From the IMG/VR virus record IMGVR_UViG_3300044971_001793, positions 1-49,782 of that record: a stretch of 49,782 bases of DNA, one strand, 5' to 3'. How positions within the stretch are numbered: the first letter of the stretch is position 1; each line of letters starts with the position of its first letter. The notes beneath the pieces are model-generated. The model was given only the letters and a program-made list of their open reading frames with translations, had not been told where the DNA came from and did no database searches. Shown here piece by piece: positions 6,496-17,122 of this stretch. This DNA is from a virus. Made by a program: the position numbers and the translations under genes.

Positions 6496-6645
6496 TTGAG
6501 TAAGTGGGAGTGGTCAATCAACAACCCAAAGAAGTTTCAGGTAAAACTATATTTAAAAGAGGACGGCCGAGCCTATAATAGAGTAAGTAGGAAGTTAGTG
6601 TTTTTTAGGAAGATTGAGTCAGTTTTTAACATTAACGAAACATAG
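6496..6645 (+). CDS. Very small basic protein (TTG start)
   Basis: A 49-codon frame starts at a TTG at 6496, 7 nt after the upstream stop, and ends at TAG 6643-6645. The product contains NPKKFQVKLYLKEDG and RKLVFFRKIESVF, which look like real protein (alternating hydrophobic strands with basic residues) rather than chance. No ATG is available in this frame, so the start is uncertain. Its stop codon overlaps the first base of the tRNA-like sequence at 6644, so the RNA must be cut from the same transcript. Confidence 0.5.
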   Translation: MSKWEWSINNPKKFQVKLYLKEDGRAYNRVSRKLVFFRKIESVFNINET

Positions 6646-6735
6646 TCGGGTGGCGCAATTGGTAGAGCAAGTAGATGACACAGATACTGATTCTGTAAAT
6701 TTTCCGCTATACAGGTTCGAATCCTGTCCTGACTA
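6644..6735 (+). tRNA. tRNA-like RNA 1 (possible anticodon CTG, abnormal)
   Basis: The ends fold as a tRNA: AGTCGGG pairs with CCTGACT (7 bp, one G-U), the D arm reads GCGCAATTGGTAGAGC with one mismatch, and the T arm is ACAGG-TTCGAAT-CCTGT. Between D and T arms the layout is not normal. The best anticodon arm is ACAGA-TACTGAT-TCTGT (about 6680-6696), giving CTG, but the base before the anticodon is A instead of the near-universal U33. There are 10-11 extra bases before the arm and a 14-nt variable region after it. CCA is not encoded. It may be a degenerate tRNA-Gln or a non-decoding tRNA mimic. Confidence 0.6.
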
Positions 6736-6736
6736 C

Positions 6737-7585: not shown

Positions 7586-7677
7586 GGTATTGTAGCTCAG
7601 TGGGAGATTCGTCTTCCTTTGGTAGAGCAGGAGTAACGAAAGACTCTGTGCCGTAGGTTCGAACCCTTCCGATACCA
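7586..7677 (+). tRNA. tRNA-like gene with a UUCG hairpin inserted in the D loop
   Basis: The acceptor GGTATTG (7586-7592) pairs with CGATACC (7670-7676). TA, then GCTCAG...TTGGTAGAGC is the usual D arm, but it is split by GGGAGATTCGTCTTCC (7602-7617), a perfect 6-bp stem (one G-U) capped by a UUCG tetraloop. The T arm is GTAGG-TTCGAAC-CCTTC with one mismatch. The apparent anticodon stem GGAGT/ACTCT closes an 8-nt loop, AACGAAAG, with no U33, so no normal anticodon can be read. It lies 11 nt after the permuted RNA on the same transcript. Confidence 0.65.
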
Positions 7678-7683
7678 CAAAAA

Positions 7684-8116: not shown

Positions 8117-9060
8117 ACAAATTAGGGAAACCTAATACGTTCTTAGAAATTTTAGATTATCCATCAGGATGTTGATGATGAGACCCTCGGGTTGATTCTG
8201 AGATAACTGAAAAACGATAATGGGTGGTATATCATCCTTAAATAAACCGGGAAACCGGGATAAAGTGAATCTGTTGTGTTAACAGGTTTGCGGTCTCAGA
8301 AATGGGACTCGAGTATACAAGTCGGATATCGCCTAACCTTTAGTACTGAGGGAAACTCTGTAAGGAAAGTGGTTGGGTGACCGGGAGATGTGGGTCTTTC
8401 GGTTGAGATTGGAAAATCAATAAGAATAACCGATAGGAATCAAGTGAGAAATAGGGTCATCCAACCTTATAATTGCGGGTTCCAATATGAGAGAAATCTT
8501 AAAGTCGAAAGACAAGATAAGTAACAGGTGGTGCTGTCATTATCCTTATCAAATATCTACCAAGATTTTGATTCGAAGAATTCTTAAAATATGAGAGATG
8601 GGAATTTCTACCGGGTAGATTGGTATTTCGTCGTCCAAAAGATGATGAAGCCTAAGACAAACCTCTACTTGGACAAATCCACAACACAAACCAAACTTTT
8701 CAATAGGTGAAAAACTAACAGAAAAACGGAAAAGTGTTTGTCAGGTGATAACGAAAGTTGCTTCCATAGTCACGGGCTGTCCGTGGCACGAAAGAACCCC
8801 AAGTTCAATCGTATTTTTACCAAAAACCTCTACGGAGTCGAATCCGGAGTCAGGTCGCAAGCTTGAAGAGAGTAGAGTAGTAAGAGAGTAGTTATTATCT
8901 TAAGGAGTAATTGGTCTAACCAATTAGCAATGAGGATTACCACTCAAAAGGTGGTGGAAACGAAGGGAAACAATAATCCTTCTAAAGATTCTTACTAAGA
9001 CGAGTATTCTCATCGTATTAAGCCAAAAAGGTAACTCATTTATTTGTGTTACCTTTTTTT
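8117..9060 (+). ncRNA. Large structured RNA, about 940 nt (GOLLD/ROOL-like or new class)
   Basis: This stretch has its own promoter and terminator, no open frame worth calling, and visibly higher G+C (about 40-50 % per line) than its surroundings. Local helices are many and well formed: ATTAGG-GAAA-CCTAAT at 8121-8136, CCGG-GAAA-CCGG near 8250, GTC-GAAA-GAC near 8506, CACGG-GCTGT-CCGTG near 8773, TAATTGGT-CTA-ACCAATTA near 8908, and CCAC/GGTGG near 8942. GNRA tetraloops recur. Size, phage setting, tRNA-like neighbours and G+C contrast are what is known for the giant phage RNAs GOLLD and ROOL. I cannot confirm membership from memory, and a new class is possible. Confidence 0.75.
9025..9060 (+). 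terminator. Rho-independent terminator of the large RNA
   Basis: AAAAAGGTAAC and GTTACCTTTTTT form a strong stem with a 12-nt loop and a T run. It also ends 3 nt before the convergent HNH gene and may serve both directions. Confidence 0.92.
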
Positions 9061-10162: not shown

Positions 10163-10438
10163 ATGAAAAAATTAATCACAGAAAATTGGGAAAGAAAATA
10201 TACCGGAGAATTACGGGTTAGGAAAGTATTGTCTATATTACCATTTATTATTGTCAATGGTGAAGATAGTGATTTTCATTGGACCGGTAAATGGTTCAAG
10301 TATGTTACAATTCAGGAACAAAAAGTGAAAGACCGTTATTTAGAGTTTGATGATGGATGGAATTACCAACATTATTGGGGAGAATGGGAGTTAAGTTGGG
10401 TATTAACCAAAATTATAGAAGATGAAAAAGTCAATTAA
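10163..10438 (+). CDS. Tryptophan-rich small protein, unknown function
   Basis: This 91-residue protein is not recognised. It is unusually rich in aromatic residues: WERKYTGE, FHWTGKWFKYV, DDGWNYQHYWGEWELSWVL. The pattern suggests a compact beta fold. It is read from a near-leaderless promoter and overlaps the smpB start by 17 nt, so the two are translationally coupled. It may therefore act with SmpB or tmRNA, but only position supports that. Confidence 0.6.
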   Translation: MKKLITENWERKYTGELRVRKVLSILPFIIVNGEDSDFHWTGKWFKYVTIQEQKVKDRYLEFDDGWNYQHYWGEWELSWVLTKIIEDEKVN

Positions 10439-10859
10439 TATTGTCAATAAGAAAGCCAAGTTTGAGTATTCATTCTTGGAAACTCTAATTGTGGGAATCA
10501 AATTAGTTGGTTCAGAGGTGAAGTCCATCCGTCAGGGGAAGGTGTCCATATCTGAAGGGTATTGTTATTTTAATGATGGGGAATTGTTTATAAAAGGGAT
10601 GAACATTTCCGATTATGGTTATGGGTCATTCCACGAGACCATTAAAGATAGAAAACTATTGGCCAAGAAAAAAGAACTAAATAAGTTGGAACGTGAGTTA
10701 ATCAACGGGACAACCATCATTCCTTATCGTGTCTTCATAAATGATACCGGATTGGTTAAGATGGAGATTGCTCTTGCCAAAGGGAAAAAACTCCACGATA
10801 AACGAGATAGTATAAAATCTCGTGATATTGAAAGAGATATGAAAAGGGACTTGAAATAG
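10422..10859 (+). CDS. smpB: SsrA-binding protein SmpB
   Basis: The 145-residue product matches SmpB along its whole length: NKKAKFEYSFLETLIVGIKLVGSEVKSIRQGK at the N-terminus, GEL(F/W)IKGMNI in the middle, RKLLAKKKELNKLE, then IPYRVFINDTGLVKMEIALAKGKKLHDKRDSIKSRD and a basic helical tail. SmpB binds the tRNA-like part of tmRNA and places it in the A site of stalled ribosomes; the basic C-terminal tail probes the empty mRNA channel and is present here. Length is close to bacterial SmpB (about 150-160). A matching tmRNA gene lies 1.5 kb downstream, so the phage carries both parts. A terminator overlaps the stop codon. Confidence 0.95.
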   Translation: MKKSINIVNKKAKFEYSFLETLIVGIKLVGSEVKSIRQGKVSISEGYCYFNDGELFIKGMNISDYGYGSFHETIKDRKLLAKKKELNKLERELINGTTIIPYRVFINDTGLVKMEIALAKGKKLHDKRDSIKSRDIERDMKRDLK

Positions 10860-10884: not shown

Positions 10885-11265
10885 ATGAATTTATTAATAC
10901 CTACTAAAATAGAAATTAAACCCTCACCAGGAAAAGGTATGGGGGTCTTCGCTATTGACGTTATTCAAAAAGATGAGGTAATTGAAGAATGTCATTTAGT
11001 AAAATTACCCACAAAAAAATGGGAGAAATCAAAACTACTTGATGATTATAGATTTTGTTATCCTCAAGGACCAAATTGGGAAGAATATGTTATTCCATTA
11101 GGTTATGGGTGTATATATAATCATTCCGATACAAATAATGCTATGTGGAGAAATCATCCAACACAAAGAGCATTCCAATTCTACGCTTTACAAACAATCC
11201 AACCCGGTGAAGAAATTTGTACAAACTATGGTGAAGGTTACCTATGGGGTGGTGTCAAACAATAA
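10885..11265 (+). CDS. SET-domain protein (putative lysine methyltransferase)
   Basis: A 126-residue stand-alone SET domain. GKGMGVFA at residues 16-23 is the SAM-binding start, EECHLVKLP follows, NHSDTNNA at 79-86 is the conserved NHS motif, and GEEICTNYGEGY at 108-119 contains the catalytic tyrosine Y115. Small SET proteins of this kind occur in large phages and viruses, and in chlorella viruses one methylates host histone. Here the target is unknown; a host or phage protein lysine is expected. It follows the smpB terminator closely and has no obvious own promoter. Confidence 0.8.
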   Translation: MNLLIPTKIEIKPSPGKGMGVFAIDVIQKDEVIEECHLVKLPTKKWEKSKLLDDYRFCYPQGPNWEEYVIPLGYGCIYNHSDTNNAMWRNHPTQRAFQFYALQTIQPGEEICTNYGEGYLWGGVKQ

Positions 11266-11720: not shown

Positions 11721-12341
11721 ATGAAAAATAATTTTGAAGAAATTAATGAATTGATACGTACTAATAACAATAATCGTAAATATGATAGTTGGTTTGATTG
11801 GGAGATTAATAATAATATTGAGATTTCTAAATTTAAAGAAGTAATAAGTGGTGTAGATTCATCAAATTTTAATCCTGATTTTTTACCAAAATCTTTAATT
11901 GACCAACTTTCAAAAATTAAAACGGATACAATATTAGATTATGGTGCAGGATTAGGTAGAAATCTACCATTATTAAAAAAATATTCAAATAATGTTGATT
12001 ACATAGATTTAGAACACTATCAAAAAAATTATATTGATTATATTAATGATTTGGGTTACAATGAAACCTATTTTATAGAAATGATACCTGATTGTTTAAT
12101 CGGAAAAAAATATGATTTAATTTATTGTTCTGTAGTTTTACAACATATTATTGATGATGAGATATATGAAAAAATTGTAAAAATATTATATGACGCTTGT
12201 GATTATTTATTTTTAGTTCAAAATATGACACCAATAAAAGATGTGTTTTATGATTACTTTAAATTAGAACATTGTGAAATAAGTAATGTTTATTTTGGTA
12301 AACATAGATACTGTTTATTTAAAACAAAAAACCCATCGTAA
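11721..12341 (+). CDS. SAM-dependent methyltransferase
   Basis: The 206-residue product has the class I methyltransferase nucleotide-binding signature ILDYGAGLGRNLPLL at residues 71-85 (D73, G75, G77, G79), then an acidic residue in VDYIDLEHYQ at the end of strand 2, and DLIYCSVVLQHI as the post-motif region typical of Methyltransf_11/12 families. The target could be a small molecule, a sugar or a protein; nothing in the sequence decides. Its stop lies inside the bidirectional terminator shared with the convergent tmRNA gene. Confidence 0.75.
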   Translation: MKNNFEEINELIRTNNNNRKYDSWFDWEINNNIEISKFKEVISGVDSSNFNPDFLPKSLIDQLSKIKTDTILDYGAGLGRNLPLLKKYSNNVDYIDLEHYQKNYIDYINDLGYNETYFIEMIPDCLIGKKYDLIYCSVVLQHIIDDEIYEKIVKILYDACDYLFLVQNMTPIKDVFYDYFKLEHCEISNVYFGKHRYCLFKTKNPS

Positions 12342-12356
12342 TGATGGGTTTTCTTT
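12329..12356. terminator. Bidirectional terminator between methyltransferase and tmRNA
   Basis: AAACCCATC and GATGGGTTT pair around GTAAT. A T-rich run follows on the plus side and a longer T run on the minus side, directly after the tmRNA CCA end, so it ends both transcripts. Confidence 0.88.
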
Positions 12357-12752
12357 TGGTGGAAGTGCGGAGACTCGAACTCCGGTGTTACTTGTATTAC
12401 CTATTAAGGACTACACGTTTAGGTCATTGTTTAAGCTAACAATCCGAAATTTCACAATTCCCTTATTTTTTGAGTGGTTCGGTTTACTGAGAACTAATCT
12501 TCCACTTGTTTCTTTTCGGGTAGAAACCACACCTTTGTAGGGACTTCTGTTGCTAGGTTATATGTCCACCGACCCCGTGTTGTGTTTCCGCTTAGGCTAC
12601 TACAACTTCTTCAGCACGGATTAAACCGATAGCTGACATTTTGTCTAAAACGTTTCCGTTTACTTTTCGTACTCCATAGATTTAAGTGATAGGAAACTTC
12701 TCACTACGTGCCCCGAATAACTATTACGAATAGTCAATTCCATGTCACTCCC
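12357..12752 (-). ncRNA. ssrA: tmRNA with a non-canonical tag
   Basis: On the minus strand the RNA starts GGGAGTG (12752-12746) and ends CACTTCCACCA, with CCA encoded. The acceptor pairs 7 of 7, with the third pair G-U, the alanine identity mark. The T arm is CGGAG-TTCGAGT-CTCCG. Near the 5' end GGAATTGAC stands where tmRNAs carry their conserved GGnUUCGAC. The reading frame ends at TAA 12594-12592 and gives AIGLIRAEEVVVA if resumed at the GCT at 12633, or KMSAIGLIRAEEVVVA if resumed after UUAGAC, which resembles the UUAGUC before the E. coli resume codon. The tag ends VVVA, not ALAA. Downstream sequence contains paired segments expected of pseudoknots. The length of 396 nt is normal for tmRNA. 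Partner smpB is at 10422. Confidence 0.93.
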
Positions 12753-12766
12753 ATATTTTGATACCA

Positions 12767-12797
12767 CAAAGATAATACATTTTTGGATAAATCCAAA
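12767..12797 (-). promoter_or_regulatory. tmRNA promoter with palindromic operator candidate
   Basis: On the minus strand TTTGG (12797-12793) and TATCTTTG (12774-12767) form the promoter; mature tmRNA begins 14 nt after the -7 box, leaving a short leader for RNase P. TTTGGAT-AA-ATCCAAA at 12782-12797 is a perfect 7-bp palindrome covering the -33 element, a likely repressor site. Confidence 0.8.
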
Positions 12798-12829: not shown

Positions 12830-14197
12830 ATGCCTGACACAAAGGATTTTCACGGGATGAAAAATATATTATTAGATAATGAAGATTGGATGGTTGTAGA
12901 CCCATTGGACTACGATTCCTTTGTTTATTACGCACCGGAAAACTATAAAGACAGATGGAATCAATTTAAAGAGGGGGACACTTATTTTATTATAGATAAA
13001 AATAAGGAACCAATTCAAACATCAGTTATTCATAAAACACAAGATAATAAAATAGAATATTATGGTGGTGAAGCAACCAGACACAGAGAATTAAATAGAA
13101 GTGAATTTGAATCCGATTTACCGGATGAGGTTAAATCCGTTGTTGATAATATTGTGGGTCAATCAGATGTTTACAAATTACTATTGGATGTTAAAAACGG
13201 AGAAAAAGTAACGTCTAATCAAATGCAAAGAGCTGACGACCTTGTTTGGAAGTTCATATATAATGAGAAAAATCCAACTAAAAGTATGGTTAAACTTCAG
13301 TTTGATGATATGGAGGATTATTTAAAATTATTTGATATTGACGAATACGATATTCCTTTTGCGGAATCGGTTTATTCTTATTATGATGGAGCCAATTTTA
13401 TTGATTATGACCACGGATATAATGAATGGAATGAAGGATATCTTTTATATCAATTTTCAGATGACAATTTAACTAAATTAAAACAAATACTTCGACTTAT
13501 TAGTCCATCTACCGCTAAATTAGATACTGATGAAGACAAAGAACAATCTAGTAAATTATTAGAGAAAATGTTTCCAAATGAGGTTGATTACATTATTACT
13601 GATTGGACTGACGAAGAAAATGCTAGTAGAAATAATGGTGCCAAAGAATGGATTGAGGGTGACGTGTGTGATTATTTTTCTAATTATGGTTTAATTAGAC
13701 AAGATTGTTTTAGACAGTATTACACCACTGTGAGTATATTATTATCTTTATATAACAACGTTGGAGATAAAACATTATCTTTACGAGAAGTGTTAAAAAA
13801 TATTGGTCATAGAGATAGTAATATTGGCGGATGGGATGAGAATAGGTGGGAAATTGATAGTGTCAGCTTTGATGAAAAATCATTCAATGAATCTGTGGAA
13901 AGACAACTTGATAAAATTTTTGAAAAAATAGAAGATTCTGATGAATTTATTGATGTTTATGAATACTCTAATATATTCAATAGAATTACTAAAAATTATC
14001 ATCTTAACAACAGATATGAAACTAAATCAGGTAGAGAGTTTTTTATTAGAAAAATCGACCCGGCAACAAATAAAATTGTTGTTCAAGTGTTTAAAAAAGA
14101 TGGTGGTGGATTGGAAGATAGAAGTTACACCGAAGAAGAATTTAATAACTTTTTAGTTTCTCCCGAGTTATTTGAAGGGTTTATTAGAATAAACTAA
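12830..14197 (+). CDS. Large acidic protein, unknown function
   Basis: This 455-residue protein is strongly acidic and aromatic (many Asp, Glu, Tyr and Trp), with no motif I recognise. A region near residues 20-50 (DPLDYDSFVYYAPENYKD) and a stretch with YFIIDKNKEPIQTSVI look like small beta modules that bind or coat something. A C-terminal module again shows strand-rich KSGREFFIRKI and NKIVVQVFKKDGG. The start was placed at 12830, after the late-type box. Late expression suggests a virion or assembly protein. It could also be an inhibitor mimicking nucleic acid charge, but that is only a guess. Confidence 0.55.
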   Translation: MPDTKDFHGMKNILLDNEDWMVVDPLDYDSFVYYAPENYKDRWNQFKEGDTYFIIDKNKEPIQTSVIHKTQDNKIEYYGGEATRHRELNRSEFESDLPDEVKSVVDNIVGQSDVYKLLLDVKNGEKVTSNQMQRADDLVWKFIYNEKNPTKSMVKLQFDDMEDYLKLFDIDEYDIPFAESVYSYYDGANFIDYDHGYNEWNEGYLLYQFSDDNLTKLKQILRLISPSTAKLDTDEDKEQSSKLLEKMFPNEVDYIITDWTDEENASRNNGAKEWIEGDVCDYFSNYGLIRQDCFRQYYTTVSILLSLYNNVGDKTLSLREVLKNIGHRDSNIGGWDENRWEIDSVSFDEKSFNESVERQLDKIFEKIEDSDEFIDVYEYSNIFNRITKNYHLNNRYETKSGREFFIRKIDPATNKIVVQVFKKDGGGLEDRSYTEEEFNNFLVSPELFEGFIRIN

Positions 14198-14239: not shown

Positions 14240-15061
14240 ATGGATAGAGATTATGAATTATTAAAAGAAGTTTTGTCAGTTCCGACAAAAACATATCAAG
14301 AAGACCTTATGGTGGAGTTTCTAATCAAATGGTTAGAAGAGAATGGAATTCCATTTAATGTGGATGAACATAAAAACATTTATGCCGTAAAACAAACGGA
14401 TGAATCTATTGAATATTTCCCTTGTGTTATTGCTCATACAGATACGGTTCACTCATTGGATAACATTATTATTCGTGAGGAAACATTACCTAACGAACAA
14501 AAAGTTTTAAAACCTTCCCTAAAAGCGTACAATAATTTTGGACACCCAACCGGAATTGGTGGTGATGATAAATGTGGAATCTTCGCTTGTTTGGAATTAT
14601 TAAAAGAGTTACCAAATTTAAAAGCAGCATTTTTTGTTTCTGAAGAAACCGGATGTCACGGTTCTAAAAAAGCCGACCCAACATTCTTTTCAAACGTAGG
14701 ATATGGGATTCAGTTTGATGCTCCGGGGAATGTAATGGTAAGTGAATATTGTATGGGGACACAATTGTTTGAAAGGGATAGTGAATTTTTTAAAATTTGT
14801 GATGTAGCATTAAACGAAGGGTTTAACGGTAGACATGACTATCAATCTCACCCATATACAGATGTTTACGCATTGAAGAATATCTTTGACTTCTCCTGTA
14901 TCAATTTTGCGATAGGTTATTACAACTATCACACACCAAATGAATATGTTGTTGTTGAAGATGTTTATAGCGGAATAGAGACCGGTAAAAAGATGATTGA
15001 GGGGTTAGGATATAAGAAGTATCCGTTTAAAGTTGACAGTAAATATTTTAGAATGTTTTAA
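14240..15061 (+). CDS. M20-family metallopeptidase (peptidase T-like)
   Basis: The 273-residue product has the zinc-peptidase signature of the M20/M42 clan: AHTDTVH at residues 65-71 (H66, D68), GIGGDDKCG at 106-113 (bridging aspartate), SEETGCHG at 134-141 (catalytic glutamate and metal-binding glutamate), QFDAPG near 159-164, and a late histidine in YNYHTPNEY. The family trims di- and tripeptides or deacylates small substrates. It is shorter than bacterial PepT (about 400) and seems to lack most of the dimerisation lid domain. Together with the Clp unfoldase next door, it could help recycle peptides. Confidence 0.75.
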   Translation: MDRDYELLKEVLSVPTKTYQEDLMVEFLIKWLEENGIPFNVDEHKNIYAVKQTDESIEYFPCVIAHTDTVHSLDNIIIREETLPNEQKVLKPSLKAYNNFGHPTGIGGDDKCGIFACLELLKELPNLKAAFFVSEETGCHGSKKADPTFFSNVGYGIQFDAPGNVMVSEYCMGTQLFERDSEFFKICDVALNEGFNGRHDYQSHPYTDVYALKNIFDFSCINFAIGYYNYHTPNEYVVVEDVYSGIETGKKMIEGLGYKKYPFKVDSKYFRMF

Positions 15062-15064
15062 TAA

Positions 15065-15093
15065 AAAAAAAGAGGACTAATTGTCCTCTTTTT
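15065..15093. terminator. Bidirectional terminator between M20 peptidase and Clp genes
   Basis: AAAGAGGAC and GTCCTCTTT pair around TAATT with A and T runs on both sides; the stop of the Clp gene lies inside. Confidence 0.9.
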
Positions 15094-17122
15094 TCTTTCT
15101 TGTCTTTTTGGTAGGTTCAGTTTTGACTACCACTTCTTTCTCTACGGATACAAGGGTGTATGGAACGCCCTCCACCATATTTCCATTGATAATCTCTTCA
15201 GATACAAAATCTTCAATCTTATCTTGGATTGCTCTTTTAATTGGTCTCGCTCCATAGGTCTCATCGAATCCAACCTCAGAGATTAGTTCTAAAATACTTT
15301 CATCAAATGTGATATCATATTTCAACCCAACCAATCTTTTAGATAGTTTGTTCAATTCCAATTTCACAATTTTCTTAACGTCTTCTTTAACCAAAGAGTT
15401 AAAGATAACAACCTCATCAATTCTGTTTAAGAATTCCGGTGTAAAGAATTTTTTAAGTTCTTTTTTAAGAATATCACGTTTGTACTCTTCTTCAGCGTAT
15501 GAAACATTTCCTGTTTTGAATCCAACACCCGAACCAAAGTCCTGTAATTTTTTAACCCCCACGTTTGATGTCATAATGATGACACAATTTTTGAAGTTAA
15601 TCTTTCTCCCCATACCATCGGTAAGGTGACCGTCGTCTAATACTTGAAGAAGTGTTGAGAAGATGTCTTTGTTTGCTTTCTCAATTTCATCAAATAGAAT
15701 TACAGAATAAGGTTTGTTTTTCACTTGTTCGGTTAATTGTCCACCTTCATCGTATCCAACGTATCCCGGAGGTGCTCCAATTAATCTTGAAATGGTGTGT
15801 TTTTCTTGGTATTCAGACATATCCACACGAATCATATTATCTTCGCTACCGAACATTTGTTTGGCTAGTTGTTTTGCCAAGTATGTTTTACCAACACCTG
15901 TTGAACCTAAAAAGATGAATGAACCGATTGGTTTGTTTGGGTCCTTGATACCAATTCTGTTTCTACGGATTGATTTTGCAATCTTTGAAACTGCTTCAGA
16001 TTGTCCGATAACTTTATCAGATAGATTTGTTTCCATCTCAGATAGTAGTTTGGTTTCATCCGCATTTAATTTGGTAACCGGGATTTTTGTCATATTGGAA
16101 ACTACCTCATAAACTAAATCCAAAGTGATTTCTTTTTTGTGTGTAAGAAGTTCTTCTTCAAACTTTTTCTTTTCAGTTTCAAGTTTGGTTAAGATACGTT
16201 TTTCTTTATCACGTAGATTTGCTGCCTCCTCGTATCTTTGTTGTTTTACGACATCAATTTTCTCTTGTTTAATGTTTGATGCTTGTAGTTTCAATTTTTC
16301 AATTGAATCCGGCATTTTTACATCTACCTGACTTCTTGCTCCAACCTCATCAATAATGTCGAATCCTTTGTCCGGGAATTCTCTATCGGTGATATAACGG
16401 TCTGCCAAATCAACACATACTGATAGTACTTCATCGGTATAAGTTACCTTATGGTAGTTTTCGTATTTGTCTTTTACATTTTTAAGGATGATTAATGTTT
16501 CTTCTTTGGTTGCTGCATCCACAACAACTTTTTGGAAACGTCTTTCTAACGCTCCGTCTTTCTCGAAGTTTTTTCTGTATTCATCCAAAGTGGTTGCTCC
16601 AACACATTGAATCTCTCCACGAGCAAGTGCTGGTTTAAAGATGTTTGATGCGTCCATTGAACCTGATGAATTTCCGGCTCCAACAATTGTGTGGATTTCG
16701 TCAATGAATACGATGATGTTTGGTTCGTTTTGAAGTTCTTCGATGATGACTTTCATTCTTTCTTCAAATTGTCCACGGTATTTTGTTCCCGCAACAATTG
16801 ATGTCATATCTAAGGATACAATACGTTTGTCCATTAAGTTTCTTGGACAATCCCCATTATAAATCATAATTGCAAGACCTTCAACGATTGCGGTTTTACC
16901 ACAACCAGGTTCACCAATAATGATTGGGTTATTTTTCTTTCTACGTGAAAGGATTTGTGCAATTCGAGTGATTTCTCTTTCTCTACCTACCACCGGGTCA
17001 AGTTTACCCTCTTCGGCAAGTTTAATCAAATCTCTACTAAAATTGTCTAATACGGGAGTTGATGAATCAGTTTTAACTGCTTTATTCCCACCGTTACTTC
17101 CACCATCCATAGATTCTGTCAT
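15077..17122 (-). CDS. clpC: ClpC-like AAA+ unfoldase without the N domain
   Basis: A 681-residue protein with two AAA+ modules. Module 1: Walker A GEPGCGKT (70-77), pore loop [11 protein letters not shown] (112-122), Walker B VFIDEIH (138-144). A short middle region holds a UVR motif, [17 protein letters not shown] (294-310), as in ClpC. Module 2: GSTGVGKT (406-413), pore loop GYVGYDEGG (453-461), Walker B ILFDEIEK (475-482), then the tripeptide VGF (533-535) in the loop that docks into ClpP in ClpA, C and X. The N-terminal Clp-N repeat domain (about 140 residues in bacteria) is missing, replaced by a Gly/Ser-rich leader, so adaptor use should differ. Probably an unfoldase feeding host ClpP; the phage tmRNA lies 2.3 kb away. 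Confidence 0.9.

Follow-up and report, generated by a model that had tools for sequence, protein, structure and literature searches.

tmRNA gene and RNA structure

The window analyzed here is the whole stretch of 49,782 nucleotides. It comes from a large virus that lives in fresh water and probably infects Bacteroidota. The nearest cellular relatives of its SmpB are mostly Bacteroidota, and the host phylum is likely to be Bacteroidota. The terminase is distantly T4-like. A complete tmRNA gene (ssrA) lies on the minus strand at 12752-12357. It is 396 nucleotides long with an encoded CCA end, and it is the single tmRNA that Rfam found in the window (RF00023; it scores 67.8 bits, and the gathering score is 47). 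ARAGORN missed the gene, and a blastn search with it gave no match in 50,697 phage records.

RNA anatomy, reading frame, conservation, gene linkage and the intactness of motifs were computed. Covariation among 34 diverse homologous phage tmRNAs backs the acceptor stem, helix 2, the pseudoknot PK1 and the T-arm. Paired cells made up 89.5% in this alignment and 75.6% in shuffles, and two-sided changes were present at 17 of 27 pairs. The 5' strand of the acceptor stem (12746-12752, minus; helix 95.3% paired) includes G3 of the G3-U70 alanine identity pair. The T-arm, the 3' strand of the acceptor stem with U70 at 12363, and the terminal ACCA occupy 12357-12384 (minus); the T-stem is 94.6% paired and has two-sided changes at all five pairs. 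The third pair is GU in 34/34 phage tmRNAs, and thus the alanine identity pair of the tRNA-like domain is kept. PK1 is 5' of the tag (12670-12704, minus). Its stem S1 is GTGA/TCAC (GTCA/TGAC in L149) and 95.5% paired, while S2 is weaker (66% paired, two-sided changes at 5/6 pairs).

Upstream of the gene, TATCTTTG (12767-12774, minus) fits TAnnTTTG, the promoter element of Bacteroidota. This motif is found 5' of 40/49 distinct tmRNA genes, compared with 6.4% of random 70-mers. On the other side, direct reading of the sequence gives a terminator-like hairpin, AACCCATC...GATGGGTT, followed by a T run (12326-12350, minus).

Tag reading frame

A sequence-only reading of this DNA had claimed a minus-strand tag ending in RAEEVVVA before a stop codon, and we confirmed it. 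The minus strand reads ...AAGUAAAC GGA AAC GUU UUA GAC AAA AUG UCA GCU AUC GGU UUA AUC CGU GCU GAA GAA GUU GUA GUA GCC UAA. The tag GNVLDKMSAIGLIRAEEVVVA has 21 amino acids and its frame spans 12592-12657, with the stop TAA at 12594-12592. In E. coli tmRNA the frame is set by A86, four bases 5' of the resume codon (PMC2481249). The base at this distance from GGA or GGC in the phage RNAs (A92 of the window RNA, position 12661) and the GG itself are invariant in 34/34 diverse phage tmRNAs. Moreover, 22 Bacteroidota tmRNAs resume at the homologous site, and most of them use a Gly codon there (tags such as GENNYALAA and GESNYAMAA). GGA at 12655-12657 is therefore the resume codon. The sequence-only reading had hesitated between GCT at 12633 and AAA at 12642, and both are ruled out, since it is GGA at 12657 that lies four bases after the A and agrees with the relatives and with the hosts. 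Both rejected codons are in frame and internal, so the VVVA end is unaffected by this error. That reading had also considered that covariation might reveal a different frame. The invariant A at -4, the covarying PK1, the G3-U70 pair and the codon-position variation all support the frame given here.

A stop-free run of 21 codons is unremarkable by itself (chance about 36%). The test for selection was done on 14 distinct coding sequences of relatives that were found only through SmpB, with the tag unused. They had 20, 10 and 33 extra states at codon positions 1, 2 and 3 (permutation p = 5e-5), while the shifted frames gave p > 0.98. This bias indicates that the tag peptide is under selection, and the predicted tag is a coding frame with its stop codon. 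G1, K6, G11, L12, R14 and A21 were invariant in this set. The set includes GETIAKLSAVGLIRSEEVVTA, which starts like a Bacteroides-type tag and which the core pattern used later could not match. The frame is conserved in 37 distinct phage tag coding sequences, and what stays conserved in them is a core inside the peptide, K-M/L-x-x-[IVL]-G-L-[IVL]-R, together with the last Ala. In sampled bacterial tags the constant part is the C-terminus, whereas in the phage tags this core varies no more than the C-terminus does. The codon-position test on motif-selected sequences is biased by the search pattern, and we relied on the SmpB-found set and on codons outside the motif. Since the pattern also biases the conservation of the core, the claim that the core is conserved is taken from the SmpB-found set.

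We considered an amphipathic helix for the core and ruled it out, as the hydrophobic moment was below that of most shuffles. The tag had no match among solved structures, and none of the ORFs in the window has a tag-like C-terminus or the core motif.

Distribution of the tag family

We scanned for the family at the DNA level, using a degenerate pattern built on the core. The C-terminus was left out of the pattern, and thus the tally of C-termini is unbiased by it. The pattern matched at least 120 stretches of IMG/VR viral contigs and gave zero matches in 84,980 bacterial and archaeal species genomes. All 120 viral matches listed fall in homologous tmRNA. Among the 118 complete tags in the matches listed, 107 end in VA, seven in VAA, three in VLA and one in VTA; the relatives' endings are TVA, VVA, NVA, AVA, VAA, VLA and VTA. 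The tags of the sampled Bacteroidota tmRNAs all end in AA (22/22). The window tag ends in -VVA before the stop (12592-12603, minus), and its VVVA is different from the canonical C-terminal (A)LAA or AMAA of ssrA degrons. The claim that this tag lacks the ALAA end therefore holds, and it is general across this phage family. A literature search gave no report of the tag family and no paper analyzing phage tmRNA tags by C-terminus. One survey counted phage tmRNAs in 402 of 18,146 genomes (PMC9004378).

Genes near the tmRNA

Divergent from the tmRNA is a gene for a conserved 455-residue protein, p455 (12830-14197, plus), which adjoins the tmRNA in most loci and has no match in Pfam or PHROG. We tried p455 as an adaptor and rejected it: the model was good (pLDDT 88.6) but had no convincing, informative fold match. 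It is followed by an M20-family peptidase-like protein (14240-15061, plus; Pfam PF01546, 24.7 bits, barely above the cut-off) between ClpC and the tmRNA. Across 58 homologues, its His/Asp/Glu metal-site motifs show little or no variation.

A ClpC-type double AAA+ unfoldase of 681 residues is encoded at 15077-17122 on the minus strand. It aligns to the solved S. aureus ClpC (E 4.7e-222), and the homology begins at residue 151 of S. aureus ClpC, so the N-domain is missing from the phage protein. The N-domain, which binds adaptors in cellular ClpC, is also missing in all 55 ClpC homologues (658-716 residues). The Walker A and B motifs and the pore loops of both AAA+ modules are conserved in 56 ClpC sequences. 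The ClpP-docking [VIL]GF loop is present as GVGF in the window ClpC and as GVGF or GIGF in the homologues listed; to our knowledge, this loop is absent from ClpB. Among the listed tag loci with at least 5 kb upstream, ClpC is 2-7 kb from the tmRNA in 59/59, and the M20 gene is present as consistently (59/59). ClpC is encoded on the tmRNA strand in the tag loci listed, and a search of 16 longer records with this tag found it in every one. Thus, the phage ClpC-like protein suspected from the sequence alone exists, and it is linked to the tmRNA in each of the listed loci where linkage could be tested.

Phage SmpB (145 residues) is encoded at 10422-10859 on the plus strand. It is a full-length family member (Pfam PF01668, E 3.5e-47, 160 bits, profile positions 2-142 of 143) and scores above the NCBIfam SmpB equivalog cut-offs. 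Among the tag loci listed, SmpB is directly downstream of the tmRNA in 13 of 75 testable loci. SmpB and ClpP are confined to some lineages of the tag family. In the nine records above 250 kb with this tag, ClpC is present in 9/9 and SmpB with ClpP in 5/9, and neither ClpP nor SmpB was detected in the other four (G048-G051, possibly incomplete). All five SmpB-positive records have a ClpP family match (PF00574), and the Ser-His-Asp triad of the relatives' ClpP is intact in an alignment to what we take to be the E. coli ClpP sequence. No ClpP is present in the window record, a 49.8-kb fragment. In G037, a relative with an -AYAA tag, ClpP and SmpB are neighbours about 40 bases apart. The huge phages LR745206 and LR756502 encode SmpB, ClpC and ClpP, but their tmRNA matches are weak and partial only.

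Several other features are found nearby. A SET-domain protein gene (10885-11265, plus) adjoins SmpB. A GOLLD giant RNA (8611-9016, plus; Rfam RF02032, 312 bits) is 3.3 kb from the tmRNA and near two tRNA genes. Two tRNA-like genes of 93 nucleotides (6644-6736 and 7586-7678) have extra bases before the anticodon arm, and one of them was called tRNA-Cys with the odd anticodon aca.

Comparison with other tmRNAs, tags and unfoldases

The phage tmRNA resembles the bacterial tmRNA/SmpB system with -ALAA tags (the Bacteroidota GENNYALAA type) in being one-piece, in the G3-U70 pair, PK1 and the A at -4, in having an SmpB partner, and usually in its Gly resume codon. The phage tags differ in length (21-22 residues compared with about nine), in the -VA end and in the conserved internal core, and the tmRNA is phage-encoded and linked to ClpC. 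Bacillus phage G is another giant phage with a tag ending in -VA (AKLNITNNELQVA, ending ELQVA). However, this is an unrelated tag of 13 residues, and phage G has no match to the window ClpC. Phage tags without the LAA end are thus already known, and the VVVA-type tag is not unprecedented.

Prevotella Lak megaphages and other huge phages also encode tmRNA and SmpB, as described in a paper whose passages on them do not discuss the tags (PMC7162821), and our searches found ClpP in such phages too. The Lak tags are DDEIDFRMAA and DDEIEFRMAA. The two Lak megaphages searched (-FRMAA tags) have the ClpX zinc domain and no ClpC match, whereas the ClpC phages searched have no ClpX zinc domain. Three Lak records (L120-L122; MK250024, MK250029, MK250019) have two ClpP-family matches each. 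Outside the family, tags were read from Rfam matches by the rule of the A at -4. Two more distant ClpC phages have tags ending in AYAA (G046) and AVAA (LR756504), so ClpC is not strictly tied to -VA. Tags vary among phages, and the association of ClpC with -VA is confined to this family and is not universal.

L125 and L126 (IMG/VR G037 and G046) have the tags GKKSVWDVINAFGTPVAEVELAYAA and GKKSVWDAINSFGTPVTEVEYAYAA, which form another phage tag family. For L126 (288-751, minus), ARAGORN gives a truncated tag, EVEYAYAA, while the tag is 25 residues long in the frame set by the A at -4; automated lists of phage tags may be unreliable. In the 735-kb phage LR756501 (L127, 160-732), a weak tmRNA match (21 bits) has a group I intron (96 bits) directly after it. 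These matches suggest an intron-form phage tmRNA with a putative tag of 33 residues ending in VEDLVLA.

The ssrA tag of Mesoplasma florum is also divergent and long, and it is paired with another protease (PMC8138137). Unlike the phage system, it is cellular, ClpXP is absent, and Lon is the reader, whereas the phage reader is a predicted one. Firmicutes ClpC (S. aureus, B. subtilis) resembles the phage ClpC in its two AAA+ modules, short middle domain, ClpP loop and pore loops, and differs in having the N-domain.

Possible function of the tag

The window tmRNA is structurally intact, its tag frame is under selection, the tag has a non-LAA end, and the gene is linked to ClpC. Since the tmRNA gene adjoins the virus's own unfoldase, the tag may be re-aimed at viral machinery. 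In our judgement these genes form a functional phage trans-translation module, and there is an even chance that its tag was re-aimed from host ClpXP to phage ClpC(P). For this module we infer that the RNA is charged and tags proteins, that ClpC recognizes the tag and that the tag escapes ClpXP, and we also infer what the M20 protein does. The phage tmRNA would be charged with alanine and, together with SmpB, would enter ribosomes that have stalled; this SmpB would be phage-encoded here and would come from the host in lineages that have none. An Ala followed by GNVLDKMSAIGLIRAEEVVVA would then be appended to the nascent chain. This tag has lost the signal for host ClpX (A-L/M-A-A) and carries the internal core and the -V-A end instead. 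The most likely reader is the N-domain-less phage ClpC, which retains the pore loops and the ClpP-docking loop and would feed substrates to phage ClpP where it is encoded, or else to host ClpP. Fragments tagged in this way would go to viral machinery, and the linked M20 peptidase would perhaps then break them down to amino acids. A switch of the reader protease can evolve, as Lon reads the divergent Mesoplasma tag (PMC8138137). The linkage between ClpC and the tmRNA may, however, be conserved phage gene order and not joint function, as M20 is equally linked. A more specific form, which we hold only tentatively, is an orthogonal tag-unfoldase pair, in which the internal K-M-x-x-[IVL]-G-L-[IVL]-R, and not a C-terminal degron, would be read by an adaptor-independent phage ClpC.

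In E. coli, removal of ALAA stabilizes the tagged products (PMC3929946), so a changed end calls for a different reader unless stability itself serves a purpose. Such a purpose is conceivable, though we think it unlikely. The tag could be a deliberately poor degradation signal, by which ribosomes are rescued and the chains stay stable or are slowly degraded, uncoupled from host ClpXP, with ClpC being a general chaperone or disaggregase that is a neighbour by chance. The loss of the terminal LAA fits this explanation, as E. coli tagged products accumulate once ALAA is engineered away (PMC3929946), and so do the lineages that keep the tmRNA and in which ClpP was not found. However, a short tag would be enough for rescue, and an inert tag needs neither six invariant residues nor third-position-biased change over 21 codons. 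The ClpC homologues also retain the ClpP-docking loop.

It is improbable that the tag is still a normal host degron, with ClpXP, Lon or FtsH tolerating -VVVA or -TVA and with the length and the core coming from drift or phage ancestry. The terminal Ala is invariant, a minority of tags end in VAA (7/118 among the matches listed), and Lon, FtsH and ClpAP also accept ssrA tags (PMC8138137, PMC3929946). Nevertheless, 22/22 sampled Bacteroidota tags end in AA, and the phage core is different, more constrained, and in none of the 84,980 cellular species genomes. Finally, a decaying host-derived gene or an SmpB-titrating decoy with an untranslated frame is hardly credible: in phage DS6A only the tRNA-like domain of the tmRNA is left, and RNA of this form has been shown to inhibit tmRNA (PMC11915505, PMC4131195), but here the RNA is full-length with a covarying PK1, G3-U70 and the A86 equivalent are each kept in 34/34, the frame is conserved in 37 distinct coding sequences, and the promoter element is present in 40/49.

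Phages of this family encode the tag and its likely reader themselves and, in some genomes, also the protease, so the re-aimed module can be tested with purified proteins. If the orthogonal pair is true, it would be a viral tag-and-destroy circuit separate from that of the host. Synthetic biology, which already has Mesoplasma Lon, would gain another degron-protease pair. The tag and the phage ClpC would then be a case of a virus re-wiring bacterial quality control.
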